Below are positions 45,063 through 55,779 of a stretch of DNA of 64,000 nucleotides, piece by piece. The translations under genes and the position numbers were made by a program. The notes under the pieces are model-generated. The model saw only the letters and a list, made by a program, of their open reading frames with translations. It was not told the DNA's origin and made no database searches. The stretch comes from Clostridium sp. OF03-18AA (GTDB lineage Bacteria > Bacillota > Clostridia > Lachnospirales > Lachnospiraceae). The stretch covers positions 62,001 to 126,000 of the forward strand of contig NZ_QUEP01000002.1 in the NCBI RefSeq assembly GCF_003478035.1, in the 5' to 3' direction. Within the stretch, counting starts at the first letter, position 1, and every line of letters starts with the position of its first letter.

Positions 45063-46061
45063 TTAGAATTCCTTTGCCCCTGGGGTTAACTTATTTTTTA
45101 TATTATCCAGAATATTATCAGGATCCTTTTTGATTTCGTCTACAATCAGTTCTAGCGCCTGCAAGGAATATTTATAAAAATCTGTTTCTCCTGTACTGTA
45201 TTTCCAACACAATTTTTTATTATCTTTTATTCCAAAAAATTTTATAAAGTTATTAAAATGATATTTATTAAAAGAAACGGCGTTGCCTTTGTATTTAGGT
45301 TCTATTTTATTTCTAGATAACATAGTAGAAATAGTCTCAATGGAAGCCTTGGTTGAATATTTAAATACTTGTTCAGGATCTTTGACCTCTTTAATAACAG
45401 CCACAGGTTCTTCTCCATCTTTTGCAATATGGAATACAGCATCTGCATGTGCTTTGTTTTTTGTTATGTAATGATTAACGTTGATATTGATAGAAAACTT
45501 TGGATTTTCTGATTCTGATAGCGCCTCAATATTATTTTTTACAGAGATAAGGCGTTTGCTAATTATTTCAGGATATTTACCAGAAATTTCAGTTTCATTT
45601 AAGGATTTTAAACTTACTGATAATGTCAAAAAATTTTGCGGAACAAGTTCAGTCATGTCCACTTCATGAAACTCTGACATTTTGTTATTGAAATTTAAAA
45701 CACAAGCCTGAAAAAGCGGTACGTAAATCATTTCATATTCAACAGTTATAAAATGTGTGCTGGTATTTCTTAATTCAACTATTTTTTCAAGATTGATTCG
45801 AAGAGGATCTTTATCATTGGTAAATACTTTCTTTATGCAATCAGAAAGAGCAAATGTACGATCGGGATTGTCTGGGAAATAGATACTTTGCTCTCCCATC
45901 GTTTTAATCATGTGCGATTTAAGCATAAGCTCCCATGCATTGCATATAAACATGCTAAAACCTTCAACACGATAGCGTATAGTTGGTTTATTGTACAACT
46001 CAATAGCCATTACAAATGCTTCTTTTGCTTTGTTTAGTAATCGATCTTCAAGCTTTTCCAT
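45063..46061 (-). CDS. DUF3644 domain protein
   Basis: 332 residues from the ATG at 46061 (GGAGGG upstream). The N-terminal two thirds match the DUF3644 pattern: FVMAIELYNKPTIRYRVEGFSMFICNAWELMLKSHMI, then FALSDCIKKVF and LRNTSTHFITVEYE. The C-terminal part (KASIETISTMLSRNKIEPKYKG) may be a DNA-binding wing. Clearly more AT-rich than the rest of the prophage, suggesting separate acquisition. Function unknown; DUF3644 genes often sit in mobile defence-like contexts. Confidence 0.8.
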   Translation of the reverse strand: MEKLEDRLLNKAKEAFVMAIELYNKPTIRYRVEGFSMFICNAWELMLKSHMIKTMGEQSIYFPDNPDRTFALSDCIKKVFTNDKDPLRINLEKIVELRNTSTHFITVEYEMIYVPLFQACVLNFNNKMSEFHEVDMTELVPQNFLTLSVSLKSLNETEISGKYPEIISKRLISVKNNIEALSESENPKFSININVNHYITKNKAHADAVFHIAKDGEEPVAVIKEVKDPEQVFKYSTKASIETISTMLSRNKIEPKYKGNAVSFNKYHFNNFIKFFGIKDNKKLCWKYSTGETDFYKYSLQALELIVDEIKKDPDNILDNIKNKLTPGAKEF

Positions 46062-46083
46062 ATTGTACCCTCCATTCATCATT

Positions 46084-51988: not shown

Positions 51989-52608
51989 TTAAGAAACCAA
52001 CAGGATATGATGAGGCGGCTGCTTATACCGGAGAGTTCCAGCAGCTGCCGAAAGGAAAGTATGTGTGCGTGATCAAGCAGGTTGCGACACAGAAATCCAG
52101 AAACGGAAATGAGCAGTTTGTAATTCTTTATGACATTGCAGAGGGTGATCAGAAAGGCTTCTACCAGAAGATGTTTGATAATGACAAATCACAGAATCCT
52201 GCCGGAGCGAAGTGGCGAGGCGTATTCAAGCAGAACATGGAAGGCAAGGGCCTTTCCTGGTTTAAAGGTATTATTACCTCAATCGAACGTTCAAACAACT
52301 TTACGTTCCAGTGGGACAGAGAGGACAACGAGAAAACGCTGAACGGCAAGAAATTCGGTGGAATCTTCCGTCGCAGACAGTATGAAGCCGAGAACGGAAA
52401 TCGTCCGATCGTTACGGAGCTGTGGCAGATCCGTAGTCTGGCAGGACTTTCAGAAGCAGAGGTTCCGGAGGACGAGCTTCTTCCGGAAGGACCGGGAGCC
52501 GGAAGCCAACAGGCACAGACAAATGCGGCGCCGCCGTCTATGGTGGACGGTAATGGCTTTATGAATATTCCGGAAGGAGCCGGAGATGAGGGAATCCCGT
52601 TCTTATGA
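51985..52608 (+). CDS. DUF669 protein, probable single-strand DNA-binding
   Basis: 207 residues; PKGKYVCVIKQVATQKSRNGNEQFVILYDIAEGDQKGFYQK with KGLSWFKGIITSIERSN is the DUF669 core (an OB-like fold). C terminus is Pro/Gln/Ala-rich and ends in acidic and hydrophobic residues (GDEGIPFL), as in SSB tails that dock other replication proteins. Overlaps primase by 23 bases. Confidence 0.88.
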   Translation: MIKKPTGYDEAAAYTGEFQQLPKGKYVCVIKQVATQKSRNGNEQFVILYDIAEGDQKGFYQKMFDNDKSQNPAGAKWRGVFKQNMEGKGLSWFKGIITSIERSNNFTFQWDREDNEKTLNGKKFGGIFRRRQYEAENGNRPIVTELWQIRSLAGLSEAEVPEDELLPEGPGAGSQQAQTNAAPPSMVDGNGFMNIPEGAGDEGIPFL

Positions 52609-53167
52609 TCCGGAACTGTACCGGAAAGTTAAGGAATCAGTAACGATGCAGCAGGCCGTAGAGTATTGCGGCCTGCGTGTCATAAAGGATAAATGCCTGT
52701 GCCCGTTCCATAAGGACCAGCATCCATCCATGAAGATCTATCCGGATGGAAAAGGATATTACTGTTTTGCATGTGGATCCGGTGGGGATCAGGTCAAGTT
52801 TGTGGCAAGATACCTCGGCGTAAATAATTATGATGCAGCTAAGGAGCTGGCGCAGGCCTTTGGGATTCCTATTGAGGAGCCGGTCACATATCGGGAGAAA
52901 CGTGAAGCAGAGAAAAAGAAGCGCTACAGGCGCGAGAAAGACGAGTTTACCCGATATGCGAGGAAATGGCTAATGGTGTACCGAAGTCTCCTGTGCGAGG
53001 CGGTCAGAACGCAGGACAGGCATTTCTGGGAGGGGCTGGGCAATTTATCGTATGTGGACTACCTGCTTGAATGTCTGGAGCAGTGTCCGGAACAGGTATA
53101 CGCAGACAAGAAGGCGGTGAGTGAAATTGGAAAAGTCGAACGAAGAGTTACTGACTGGTATAGCTAA
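52586..53167 (+). CDS. DNA primase zinc-finger protein (CHC2)
   Basis: 193 residues. CHC2 zinc ligands Cys39, His42, Cys60 and Cys63 (CPFHKDQHPSMKIYPDGKGYYCFACG). Only the zinc-binding domain plus a basic helical tail is present; the catalytic TOPRIM part is missing, so priming would need the DUF927 protein next to it or a host partner. Overlaps the DUF927 gene by 47 bases. Confidence 0.9.
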   Translation: MRESRSYDPELYRKVKESVTMQQAVEYCGLRVIKDKCLCPFHKDQHPSMKIYPDGKGYYCFACGSGGDQVKFVARYLGVNNYDAAKELAQAFGIPIEEPVTYREKREAEKKKRYRREKDEFTRYARKWLMVYRSLLCEAVRTQDRHFWEGLGNLSYVDYLLECLEQCPEQVYADKKAVSEIGKVERRVTDWYS

Positions 53168-55025
53168 GCTGGAGCGGCAGAATCCATTTCCGGATGAAAT
53201 CTTTTACCGGATCTTTGAGATTGAGGACAATGTGGAACGGCAGAAGTATATTGAGGCATTGCGGAATGAAGCCAAAATCTTAAAGCGCAGCACGGAGTTT
53301 AACAATCTGTTGAAGCAGTTCCAGCTTGACTATATTCAGCGGATGCGCCAGACCGGCAACAAAACGGCTTTTACCGATCAGCCGCTGGAACTGATCTGTG
53401 CAGAATGGAGCGCTACCGATATGGGCGTGAAAACGATCCGGTACGATAAGAATATGCAGCCGATTCCGGTGATTGCCTGTAGTCATCCGATTATGCCGAT
53501 CGAGATCCTTAAAAACGTGGATACATCGGAGGAAAGGATCACGCTTGCTTATTTCAAGTCGGCATCTTGGCAGCATATTACGGTAGACCGGTCCGTTTGC
53601 GCCAATACCAACAAAATTGTGGACGTGCTGTCTCAATATGGCATTGAGGTTACTTCCGACAATGCGAAGAGTCTGGTGCGTTATATCAGTGACTGCGTAG
53701 GTTACAATCCTGTCGCTCTGGAACCGAAGAAATCCATTAACCGTTTGGGATGGGTCGGTGCAGCCTTTACCCCGTATGAGAAAGATATCCGGTACGAGGG
53801 TGGAATGGATTTCGAGGCGATCTTTAAAAATGTGTCTGAAAAGGGCGATTTTGACGTCTGGAAGAAGCTTTGCAGTGATCTCAGGAAGAATATACCCCTG
53901 CGCATGATGATGGCAGCAAGCTTCGCTTCTGTGCTTCTGGAGCCGCTTAAGGTACTGCCGTTTGTGCTGCACTTGTGGGGAACGACCGGAACAGGAAAGA
54001 CGGTGGCGCTTATGGTGGCAATGTCCATCTGGGGGAACCCGCGGATGGGCGGTCTGGTAAAGACCATGAACATGACCAAGAATGCCATTATGCGTAATGC
54101 AGCTTTTTTATGCAGCATCCCTTTTGCGGGAGATGAGCTGCAGACCATCAAGGACAAATGGCAGGGAAATTTTGACCAGCTGATCTACCAGATCACAGAG
54201 GGCGTGGATCGCGGCCGAGCGAAGGCTTATGGCGGTGTAGAGGATACCAAGACCTGGAAGAACAGTTTTATCTTTACCGGCGAGGAACCGATCACGAAGG
54301 TGAACTCCGGAGGTGGTTCAAAAAACCGTGTTATCGAGATCGCAATAGACGGTCCACTGGTGACAGACGGCCATTATGTGAGCAGCATGGTGCAGGAGAA
54401 TTATGGCTTTGCCGGAAGAAAGTTTGTGGAGTACATGCAGGAGACAGAAACCTGCAGAATCATGGACCGTTACAGAGAACTCTTTGAGGAACTCTGTAAG
54501 CTGGACACTACGGACAAGCAGGCTATGGCTATGGCCTGCATGCTGTTGGCAGATGAGATTGCAGTGAAGCTCTTTTTTACGGCAGAGCAGCCACTGCAGA
54601 TTGTTCAGGTAAAGCAGTACCTGCAGAGTGCACTTGATGTGGATATTGCTGAGCGCGCATATCAGCAGGTGTTGAATTGGGTTGCAAAGTACCAGATCCG
54701 TTTTGAAGATCCGAAAGCCGAAAACTCGCTGAATAAGGGCGAGGTCTGGGGAAAGATCGATGGCGGGAAGCTGATCGTGAATCGTGATGTACTTTTAAGT
54801 TTCCTGGATCAGAATGGATTTGACTATACGGCAGTAAGCCGAAAATGGGCAGAGAAAGGCTATCTGGTGCGCAATTCGCAAGGGAAGATGGTGCATCAGA
54901 CGAAGGTATATGGAATCAAATCGAGCTACATCAAATTCAACCTGCCAGAGGATGACGATACTACGGACAAAGATGGGTTTGTGCAGGTCGAAAATTATGA
55001 GCAGGAGACACTGCCTTTTGACTAA
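53121..55025 (+). CDS. DUF927 replicative ATPase/helicase
   Basis: 634 residues; GTG start inside the primase gene. Central P-loop LWGTTGTGKTVALM; later FAGDELQTIKDKW and FTGEEPITKVNSGGGSKNRVIEI. DUF927 proteins are phage and plasmid replication ATPases coupled to CHC2 primases. The candidate origin follows directly. The C terminus (about 540-620) may be a winged domain (FLDQNGFDYTAVSRKWAEKGYL). Confidence 0.92.
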   Translation: MKLEKSNEELLTGIAKLERQNPFPDEIFYRIFEIEDNVERQKYIEALRNEAKILKRSTEFNNLLKQFQLDYIQRMRQTGNKTAFTDQPLELICAEWSATDMGVKTIRYDKNMQPIPVIACSHPIMPIEILKNVDTSEERITLAYFKSASWQHITVDRSVCANTNKIVDVLSQYGIEVTSDNAKSLVRYISDCVGYNPVALEPKKSINRLGWVGAAFTPYEKDIRYEGGMDFEAIFKNVSEKGDFDVWKKLCSDLRKNIPLRMMMAASFASVLLEPLKVLPFVLHLWGTTGTGKTVALMVAMSIWGNPRMGGLVKTMNMTKNAIMRNAAFLCSIPFAGDELQTIKDKWQGNFDQLIYQITEGVDRGRAKAYGGVEDTKTWKNSFIFTGEEPITKVNSGGGSKNRVIEIAIDGPLVTDGHYVSSMVQENYGFAGRKFVEYMQETETCRIMDRYRELFEELCKLDTTDKQAMAMACMLLADEIAVKLFFTAEQPLQIVQVKQYLQSALDVDIAERAYQQVLNWVAKYQIRFEDPKAENSLNKGEVWGKIDGGKLIVNRDVLLSFLDQNGFDYTAVSRKWAEKGYLVRNSQGKMVHQTKVYGIKSSYIKFNLPEDDDTTDKDGFVQVENYEQETLPFD

Positions 55026-55027
55026 AA

Positions 55028-55303
55028 GGTCTTACCTGATTTCTAAAAGGTAAGACCTTGGTAAGACCCTTGAAGCCGCATAAACACTGGCTTTTTTAAT
55101 AAGGTCTTACCTGTCTTACCGGTCTTACCTGTTATATAGTCTCGTGACGCGAGGAAAAAAACGTCATTATTTTTTCTATTATAAAAATATAGACTTATTA
55201 TCCGGGTTTTTAGGTAAGACAGTAAGACCCTAAGTAAAATAAGGGCTTGCGGGCATTTTTTAGGTAAGATTCGGGAAAGACATTTCCGGAAAATGGTAAG
55301 ACC
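55028..55303. other. Candidate phage replication origin: iteron array with AT-rich core
   Basis: Ten copies of GGTAAGAC or close variants in about 280 bases: reverse at 55028, 55103, 55113 and 55121; forward at 55049, 55060, 55213, 55222, 55263 and 55295. Between the two blocks lies an AT-rich stretch (about 55155-55212). The first two copies form a perfect 11-base inverted repeat (AAGGTCTTACC). No gene occupies the gap. Iterons beside an AT-rich element next to primase/helicase genes suggest an origin; a regulatory operator array is the alternative. Confidence 0.6.
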
Positions 55304-55326
55304 GCAGCTATGAGGGGATGAAAACA

Positions 55327-55779
55327 ATGAAAATGAGCAATAAATCAGCCGGCACAATGTTTGAGCGTGAATTTGCTGGGAAACTGGCAAAGAACCGTTT
55401 CTGGGTGCACCGATTTCAGGACAATAAAAACGGGCAGCCTTGTGATGTGATCGCGGCCAGGAACGGAAAAACATATCTCTTTGACTGCAAAGACTGTGCC
55501 GGCGCATTTCAGTTAAGCAGGGTGGAGGAAAACCAGTACAATGCAATGTATTTGTTTCACCTGACCGGAAACAGCCGCGGGATGTTTGCAGTCAGATATG
55601 ATCCGGAAGTGATCTTTCTGGTTGACTATCAGGTTCTGAAAGATTTACAGGACAGGGGAGTCCGGTCGATTCCGCGCGTGGCTATGACACGATACGGTAG
55701 AACGCTGAATGACTGGCTTCAGGAATTAAACGATTCAGAGATAGGAGATGAGACAATTGATCATACAGATTGGCGCTGA
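55327..55779 (+). CDS. RecU-like Holliday junction resolvase
   Basis: 150 residues from the ATG at 55327 (AGGGGATG upstream; the ATG at 55318 overlaps that site). PD-(D/E)XK core: GTMFEREFAGKLAKN, QPCDVIAARNGKTYLFDCKDC with the catalytic Asp and Asp-x-Lys (a Cys/Asp variant of ExK), then LSRVEENQYNAMYLF. Resolves junctions during phage recombination and replication. Confidence 0.82.
   Translation: MKMSNKSAGTMFEREFAGKLAKNRFWVHRFQDNKNGQPCDVIAARNGKTYLFDCKDCAGAFQLSRVEENQYNAMYLFHLTGNSRGMFAVRYDPEVIFLVDYQVLKDLQDRGVRSIPRVAMTRYGRTLNDWLQELNDSEIGDETIDHTDWR

Follow-up and report, generated by a model that had tools for sequence, protein, structure and literature searches.

A repeat array behind a DUF927 helicase gene as the probable replication origin of a prophage-like element, with a predicted base-reading residue in the helicase winged helix

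A 64,000-nucleotide (nt) stretch of Clostridium sp. OF03-18AA (contig NZ_QUEP01000002.1, positions 62,001 to 126,000), here called the window, carries an apparently prophage-like element in which a cluster of short repeats lies behind the gene of a DUF927 helicase. What is this array for, and which protein would read it? The original prediction, made from the DNA letters and their open reading frames, proposed a phage origin with ten iterons. Our analysis indicates that the array is very probably the phage's own replication origin, with the winged helix of the DUF927 helicase as its predicted binder and glutamine 593 (Q593) of that domain as the predicted reader of iteron base 4.

An exact-match scan of the 64-kilobase (kb) window found GGTAAGAC eight times within 55029-55302 and never outside the array, and three copies with one mismatch lie among them (Table 1). 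The repeats and the coordinates given for them therefore hold, and only their number needs correction, from ten to eight exact sites or eleven with the one-mismatch copies. In the 400 nt behind the gene, none of 200 first-order Markov resamplings equalled the top 8-mer count of eight. The gap that holds the array (55026-55317, 292 nt) directly follows the DUF927 gene, as had been stated, and an AT-rich core does separate the repeats. Counted from the helicase stop, the iterons lie at offsets 3−, 23+, 34+, 78−, 87− and 96− and, beyond the 83-nt core, at 187+, 195+, 237+, 248+ and 269+. The earlier description of two orientation blocks is thus roughly right: all five sites right of the core are on the plus strand, and those on the left are mixed (− + + − − −). 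From this order it follows that the inner sites on either side point away from the AT-rich core.

Table 1. Coordinates of the helicase gene, its proposed reading residues and the repeat array in the window
Feature	Position	Strand	Basis
CHC2 zinc-ribbon protein, 193 amino acids, primase-like, replication module	52586..53167	+	Pfam PF01807; PHROGs primase matches
DUF927 helicase, 634 amino acids, predicted self-loading initiator of SaPIbov1 Rep/Cch type	53121..55025	+	Pfam DUF927 and HTH_56; PDB 8tch, 5dgk
C-terminal winged helix HTH_56, residues 508-611, predicted iteron-binding domain	54642..54953	+	Pfam; model
Codon 593 (Gln), predicted reader of iteron base 4	54897..54899	+	covariation
Codon 595 (Lys), possible reader of iteron base 8	54903..54905	+	weaker covariation
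Iteron 1, GGTAAGAC	55029..55036	-	exact match
Iteron 2, GGTAAGAC	55049..55056	+	exact match
Iteron 3, GGTAAGAC	55060..55067	+	exact match
Iteron 4, GGTAAGAC, inner left triplet	55104..55111	-	exact match; relatives' site maps
Iteron 5, GGTAAGAC, inner left triplet	55113..55120	-	exact match; relatives' site maps
Iteron 6, GGTAAGAC, inner left triplet	55122..55129	-	exact match; relatives' site maps
AT-rich core, 83 nt, 72% AT, likely unwinding element	55130..55212	.	site map
Short inverted repeat CTCG-TGACG-CGAG in core	55141..55153	+	sequence; relatives' alignment by eye
Iteron 7, GGTAAGAC, inner right pair	55213..55220	+	exact match
Iteron 8, AGTAAGAC	55221..55228	+	one mismatch
Iteron 9, GGTAAGAT	55263..55270	+	one mismatch
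Iteron 10, GGAAAGAC	55274..55281	+	one mismatch
Iteron 11, GGTAAGAC	55295..55302	+	exact match

The helicase encoded just upstream is the predicted reader of these sites. It contains a DUF927 ATPase domain (PF06048, 126.7 bits against a cutoff of 22.6) and a Cch-type winged helix (PF18662 HTH_56, residues 508-611, 87.8 bits against a cutoff of 26.2), so that the earlier remark that no iteron-binding protein is obvious was wrong. The protein matches SaPIbov1 Rep (PDB 8tch) and Cch (5dgk) by sequence as well as by fold, and the solved SaPIbov1 Rep/Cch fold extends over most of it in the fold comparison. The structure model (mean predicted local distance difference test score, 84.3) has wing strands at residues 591-596 and 599-607. 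In staphylococcal pathogenicity islands (SaPIs), the origins used by Rep are iterons directly behind the rep gene, according to the passages of PMC7581432 and PMC9894130 used here. Given that the array is real, that a Cch-type helicase gene lies just upstream and that SaPI Rep origins occupy this very place, the guess of an origin, with the DUF927 protein as its initiator, is very likely right.

The same layout recurs in related loci. These were collected from viral contigs, genome contigs, phage and plasmid records and genomes, always with the protein and never with the repeats as the query; from 240 sequences (239 loci and the window), removal of 120 duplicates and 12 open-ended ones left 108. 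L024, with a broken helicase frame, was excluded from later counts, and L240-L243, found after counting, stand outside all of them. At least 4417 proteins among 7993 candidates scored were helicase homologues at an E value of 1e-20 or better; close relatives occur in Lachnospiraceae-type records. In one family, 22 of 397 genomes gave a match at an E value of 1e-50, and two genus searches matched one of 9 and one of 12 genomes, both already known. An array was called significant if at most 2 of 200 resamplings scored as high (exact 8-mer). By this measure an array stands behind the helicase gene in all 44 loci with at least 57% identity (the window and near-copies included), in 26 of 34 at 38-57% and in 14 of 29 below 38%. 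Of 1756 other 400-nt tiles from the examined loci, just 13 contain an 8-mer four or more times.

Of 43 loci (below 95% mutual identity and at least 45% identical to the window), 41 yielded a site map; the two that did not, L083 and L089, carry arrays of other iterons. The inner left sites were on the minus strand in 116 of 123 cases and the inner right sites on the plus strand in 82 of 82, and the outer sites varied more than the inner ones. The core measured 79-115 nt (median, 87), with an AT fraction of 0.72 versus 0.64, and in all 41 mapped loci its AT content exceeded that of the entire stretch that follows the gene. Alignment of the DNA of 18 close loci revealed a conserved CCGCATaaAA...GCTTTT left of the inner triplet and a conserved caaCcgGaTTTT before the inner right pair; the inverted repeat in the core (TCTCGT..CGCGAG type) is, by eye, kept in many of the 18 and not in all.

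The iteron itself differs between phages: some carry GGTAAGAC, and others carry GGTTAGAC or, in one case, GGTTGGAC. In the first alignment, the residue after a conserved histidine (593 in the window) seemed to pair with base 4, an observation made before further loci were fetched. The column scan used 77 rows (identity of at least 38%, match reaching residue 585), of which 57 were classed A or T at base 4 and 20 were unclassed. Among 616 columns, 593 was the best, with Q if and only if A in 56 of the 57 classified loci, followed by column 591 (0.77). In the non-redundant set (47 classified rows, below 95% identity to each other), the rule held in 46 of 47, and the next column reached 35 of 47 (0.74). 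All 25 discovery loci obeyed it, as did 31 of 32 held-out loci (29 of 29 with an [HF]xT motif) and 23 of 24 non-redundant held-out loci (21 of 21 with the motif). The count of single GGTNNGAC copies in motif-bearing non-redundant loci gave Q with A4 in 123 of 123, S with T4 in 66 of 66 and C with T4 in 26 of 27; in N593 loci, 78 of 91 copies have T4 and one has A. Three of the 20 unclassed loci have arrays in which the matching base is A (L095, with Q), T (L158, with H) and T (L236, with N). The covariation of residue 593 and base 4 in 46 of 47 loci suggests that the C-terminal domain may set the iteron sequence. As a separate case, L019, an N593 phage, has a mixed array of five GGTTAGAC and three GGTCAGAC downstream of its helicase gene, perhaps a transitional state.

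Such a rule might also arise by hitchhiking, because with the 3′ end of the helicase gene and the origin inherited together, some column would be bound to match. Sister phages do exchange the two together, and the adjacent residues 590 and 591 are partly correlated with base 4. In a linkage scan of 36 of the 47 non-redundant rows (identity of at least 57%), however, sites 1 and 3 of codon 593 held 0.98 bits on base 4, while the third positions of the neighboring codons 592 and 594 held 0.002 and 0.074 bits; the best sites elsewhere were in codons 591 (0.43) and 590 (0.41). A quick tree built from residues 1-500, without the winged helix, shows 17 changes of the base label, of which starred branches force at least 10, as well as 17 changes of Q593 and 18 of the two jointly. 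Among ten independent pairs on starred branches, Q accompanied A in an average of 9.9 (median p of 0.002 by sign test); of the columns listed, 584, 590 and 621 did not reach significance. Hitchhiking as the source of the covariation is therefore highly improbable.

The other proteins of the phage provided a further control. The best column among six of them (Gp157, Sak4, SSB, primase, resolvase and DEAD helicase, present in 36, 47, 47, 51, 45 and 45 of the 57 loci) scored 0.72-0.78, and on these subsets column 593 scored 0.97-1.0 and column 591 scored 0.81-0.89. These values also bear on the notion that a transcription regulator of the phage uses the repeats as its operators, to control for example the genes from 55318 onward. 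The repeats do lie upstream of the gene at 55318, and the phage encodes several helix-turn-helix (HTH) proteins; on the other hand, base 4 covaries with the winged helix of the helicase and less so with the six other proteins (phage regulators are not among these), and array and helicase gene occur together in every locus at 57% identity or more. Furthermore, no sigma-70-like promoter was found in 54900-55400, where shuffled sequences gave a mean of 1.0 (the scan covered the sigma-70 type only). We consider an operator very unlikely. A weak terminator-like site on the other strand (55000-55015) is the sole one near the array. An RNA element at the array was rejected: three sub-threshold Rfam matches (E values of 0.12-0.84), two of which overlie the array, fall far under the gathering scores and are put down to chance. 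A minus-strand frame of 167 codons (55043-55546) covers most of the gap, and a DNA similarity search of a phage collection with the array region gave no match.

Partition and packaging sites can likewise be short repeats in both orientations, and the array could be one of these. Against this stand the initiator-type helicase gene in front, the AT-rich core and the origin layout described for SaPIs in the passages from PMC9894130, as well as the distance of 6 kb between the array and the terminase genes, which together leave a partition or packaging site extremely improbable. An origin, and the DUF927 protein (already named as a candidate in the original prediction) as its probable binder, are both supported by the homology to SaPIbov1 Rep and Cch, by the succession of gene and array in close relatives and by the residue-base covariation.

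Several observations weigh against this interpretation. At the set threshold, 8 middle relatives (of 34) and 15 distant ones (of 29) have no significant exact 8-mer array; among the relatives without a significant array is L139, whose helicase is cut by a premature stop. Repeats were not found in the 400 nt behind the gene of L157 (Q593) or L105 (R593), the origins of which may have moved or been lost. No sign change of the GC skew was found at the array, a measure that proved uninformative. The sole violator of the rule, L176 (39% identity), lacks the [HF]xT motif and aligns doubtfully, and L101 and L237, also without the motif, fit the rule but have V and L where S, N or C would be usual. 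The remaining 12 of the 91 copies in N593 loci have C at base 4. Residue 591 (V/I) is partly correlated as well, with values of 0.74-0.77 for the main sets and a maximum of 0.89 on one control subset, and the tree came with long-branch warnings (L176 and L077). Finally, the position of residue 593 in the groove at base 4 is a prediction from covariation.

By analogy with SaPIs, the opposite orientation of the inner iterons would let a pair of helicase hexamers form there head to head. The pair would open the AT-rich core and self-load onto the separated strands, and synthesis would then be primed and proceed bidirectionally; the wing would contact base pair 4 of each iteron. In the passages from PMC7581432 and PMC9894130, SaPIbov1 Rep is likewise a DUF927-type helicase with a C-terminal domain, which there recognizes the iterons and here is predicted to, and its origin, like the probable one here, lies directly behind the gene with repeats in opposite orientations. 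In contrast to SaPIbov1, the element studied here has integrase and terminase genes of its own and is likely a prophage, and its iteron is GGTAAGAC or, in relatives, GGTTAGAC, with one wing residue tracking one base. Staphylococcus aureus PT1028, which has a relative of the helicase, carries AGTTCCC repeats around a stretch that is AT-rich by eye, in a 311-nt gap behind the gene. Cch of the staphylococcal cassette chromosome SCCmec shares DUF927 and HTH_56 (a family named after Cch) and was matched through 5dgk, but SCC elements carry ccr recombinases according to the passages used; an eLife paper, as far as its passages go, tested a putative iteron site for Cch2, a member of another helicase family. 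The comparison with simian virus 40 (SV40) T-antigen comes from PMC9894130, which likens SaPI origins to the SV40 case, where a pair of self-loading hexamers sits head to head on repeats of opposite orientation; T-antigen differs in its N-terminal origin-binding domain (passages of PMC7581432) and belongs to a eukaryotic virus.

A possible parallel for the wing is TcpK of plasmid pCW3, a winged helix that, in the passages from PMC6137059, reads nine-nucleotide tandem repeats at the origin of transfer (oriT) mainly via its beta-wing in the major groove. TcpK is a conjugation protein without a helicase, unlike the protein studied here, and its weak fold match came from a low-confidence first model only and is not among the 50 matches listed for the better model, which counts against the proposed reading by the wing. 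TcpK is thus a lead, and a plausible model, for how the wing may read DNA, and not evidence of kinship. In the titles and abstract openings among the literature matches listed, neither an iteron-reading residue of Rep/Cch helicases nor origins of the present phage family were reported.

How could the specificity change? Comparison of sister phages suggests that it would shift, at least partly, by swapping a cassette of the C-terminal domain and the adjoining origin. Between L004 (Q, GGTAAGAC) and L007 (N, GGTTGGAC), the identity is 98-99% in the interval from 1500 to 750 nt ahead of the stop. It falls to about 70-79% in the next stretch, which runs to 300 nt past the stop, and is back at 98-100% between 450 and about 1350 nt past it. 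The differing block of about 1 kb comprises the C-terminal domain and the origin; L007 has roughly 0.4 kb of extra sequence at its far edge, and further upstream the identity drops to 0.75-0.97. Four different-type pairs were scanned in all; in L081/L083 and L074/L069 the identity likewise dips around the end of the gene and the origin, with less sharp bounds, and in L025/L028 no clear dip is seen. The two same-type pairs, L030/L031 and L066/L069, have no dip there. In a hand-picked set, the identity of the origins outside the iterons was 0.55-0.71 in 10 different-type pairs versus 0.67-0.94 in 9 same-type pairs. A divergent block between near-identical flanks implies that reader and origin are exchangeable as one unit, and since the cassette carries both, they would stay matched.

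A second residue of the wing may take part. In every [HF]xT locus with an array, K or R at position 595 goes with mainly C at base 8, whereas H (L087 and L089) goes with A, M (L236) with T and T (L083 and L239) mostly with T; base 7 is also altered in the H595 and T595 loci. Residues 593 and 595, being two apart in the wing strand 591-596, would face the same side. We hypothesize from these three departures that residue 595 may read base 8. Whether a base code in the beta-wing (593, Q to A and S, N or C to T; 595, K or R to C and others to other bases), together with a traded cassette of reader and origin, separates near-identical phages into replication-compatibility groups is a proposition for which the case stands about evenly. 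The only hints at origin compatibility come from the contig names of L069 (A type) and L074 (T type), which share one genome number; but those of L004 and L005, which are of one type, also share a number, and L030 and L031 are two loci of the same type in one Enterocloster bolteae assembly.

Distant relatives also have clear arrays, made of different octamers (L089, L097, L101, L103, L104, L117, L118 and L141; examples are GGTAAGCA, GGGTGGAA, AGGTTATC, ATGTAGGA, ATGTACAA, CGGTTACC, AGGTGAAA and CCTATCGC), which could serve to derive a wider code. The 40-kb plasmid p1_EUCAMar of Eubacterium callanderi (Clostridia; L119) has the same phage-like replication module, with three AGTTCCCG behind the DUF927 gene, an octamer shared with the gap of staphylococcal PT1028 (L144); taken alone this repeat is weak, as 40 of 200 resamplings scored as high. 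Arrays away from DUF927 genes, which might belong to hijackers, were sought with two exact patterns of the inner triplet, and none of the 20 stretches obtained (7 and 13) proved to be one. By contig name, 18 were already in the helicase set, and the other two, on viral contigs L244 and L250, contain dozens of GGTAAGAC words in dense repeats that by eye are iteron look-alikes in Gly-X-Thr coding repeats.

The replication block of the element encodes Gp157, Sak4-like, SSB-like and CHC2 zinc-ribbon proteins, the DUF927 helicase, a Holliday-junction resolvase and a DEAD helicase; a Pfam scan of the CHC2 protein found neither a catalytic primase domain nor TOPRIM. A phage integrase (42942-44213) and a terminase small subunit are also encoded, and a match to a terminase large subunit is weak and below the cutoff. 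On the question of a whole phage or a SaPI/PICI satellite island, which would depend on a helper phage for structural genes, the integrase and terminase genes speak for a whole phage; the right end of the element lies beyond the window. Between the integrase and HTH genes lies a minus-strand gene (45063-46082) with DUF3644 and a restriction-endonuclease-like EC042_2821 domain, possibly a defence gene.

Origins of this SaPI-like kind are already known, and in the passages used here the choice of origin by self-loading bacterial initiators of the Rep/Cch type has been traced as far as a domain. What is new is the array in the same place across all 44 close loci, its two iteron types and the rule linking residue 593 to base 4, and this rule is the part worth testing. 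Natural variation thereby offers a residue-to-base prediction with many switches, along with a natural cassette swap, and reduces the choice of origin across at least 4417 homologues to a simple binding experiment. For uncultured phages, it suggests that origins be sought behind the DUF927-HTH_56 gene, and the rule would make it testable how origins of this kind are recognized.
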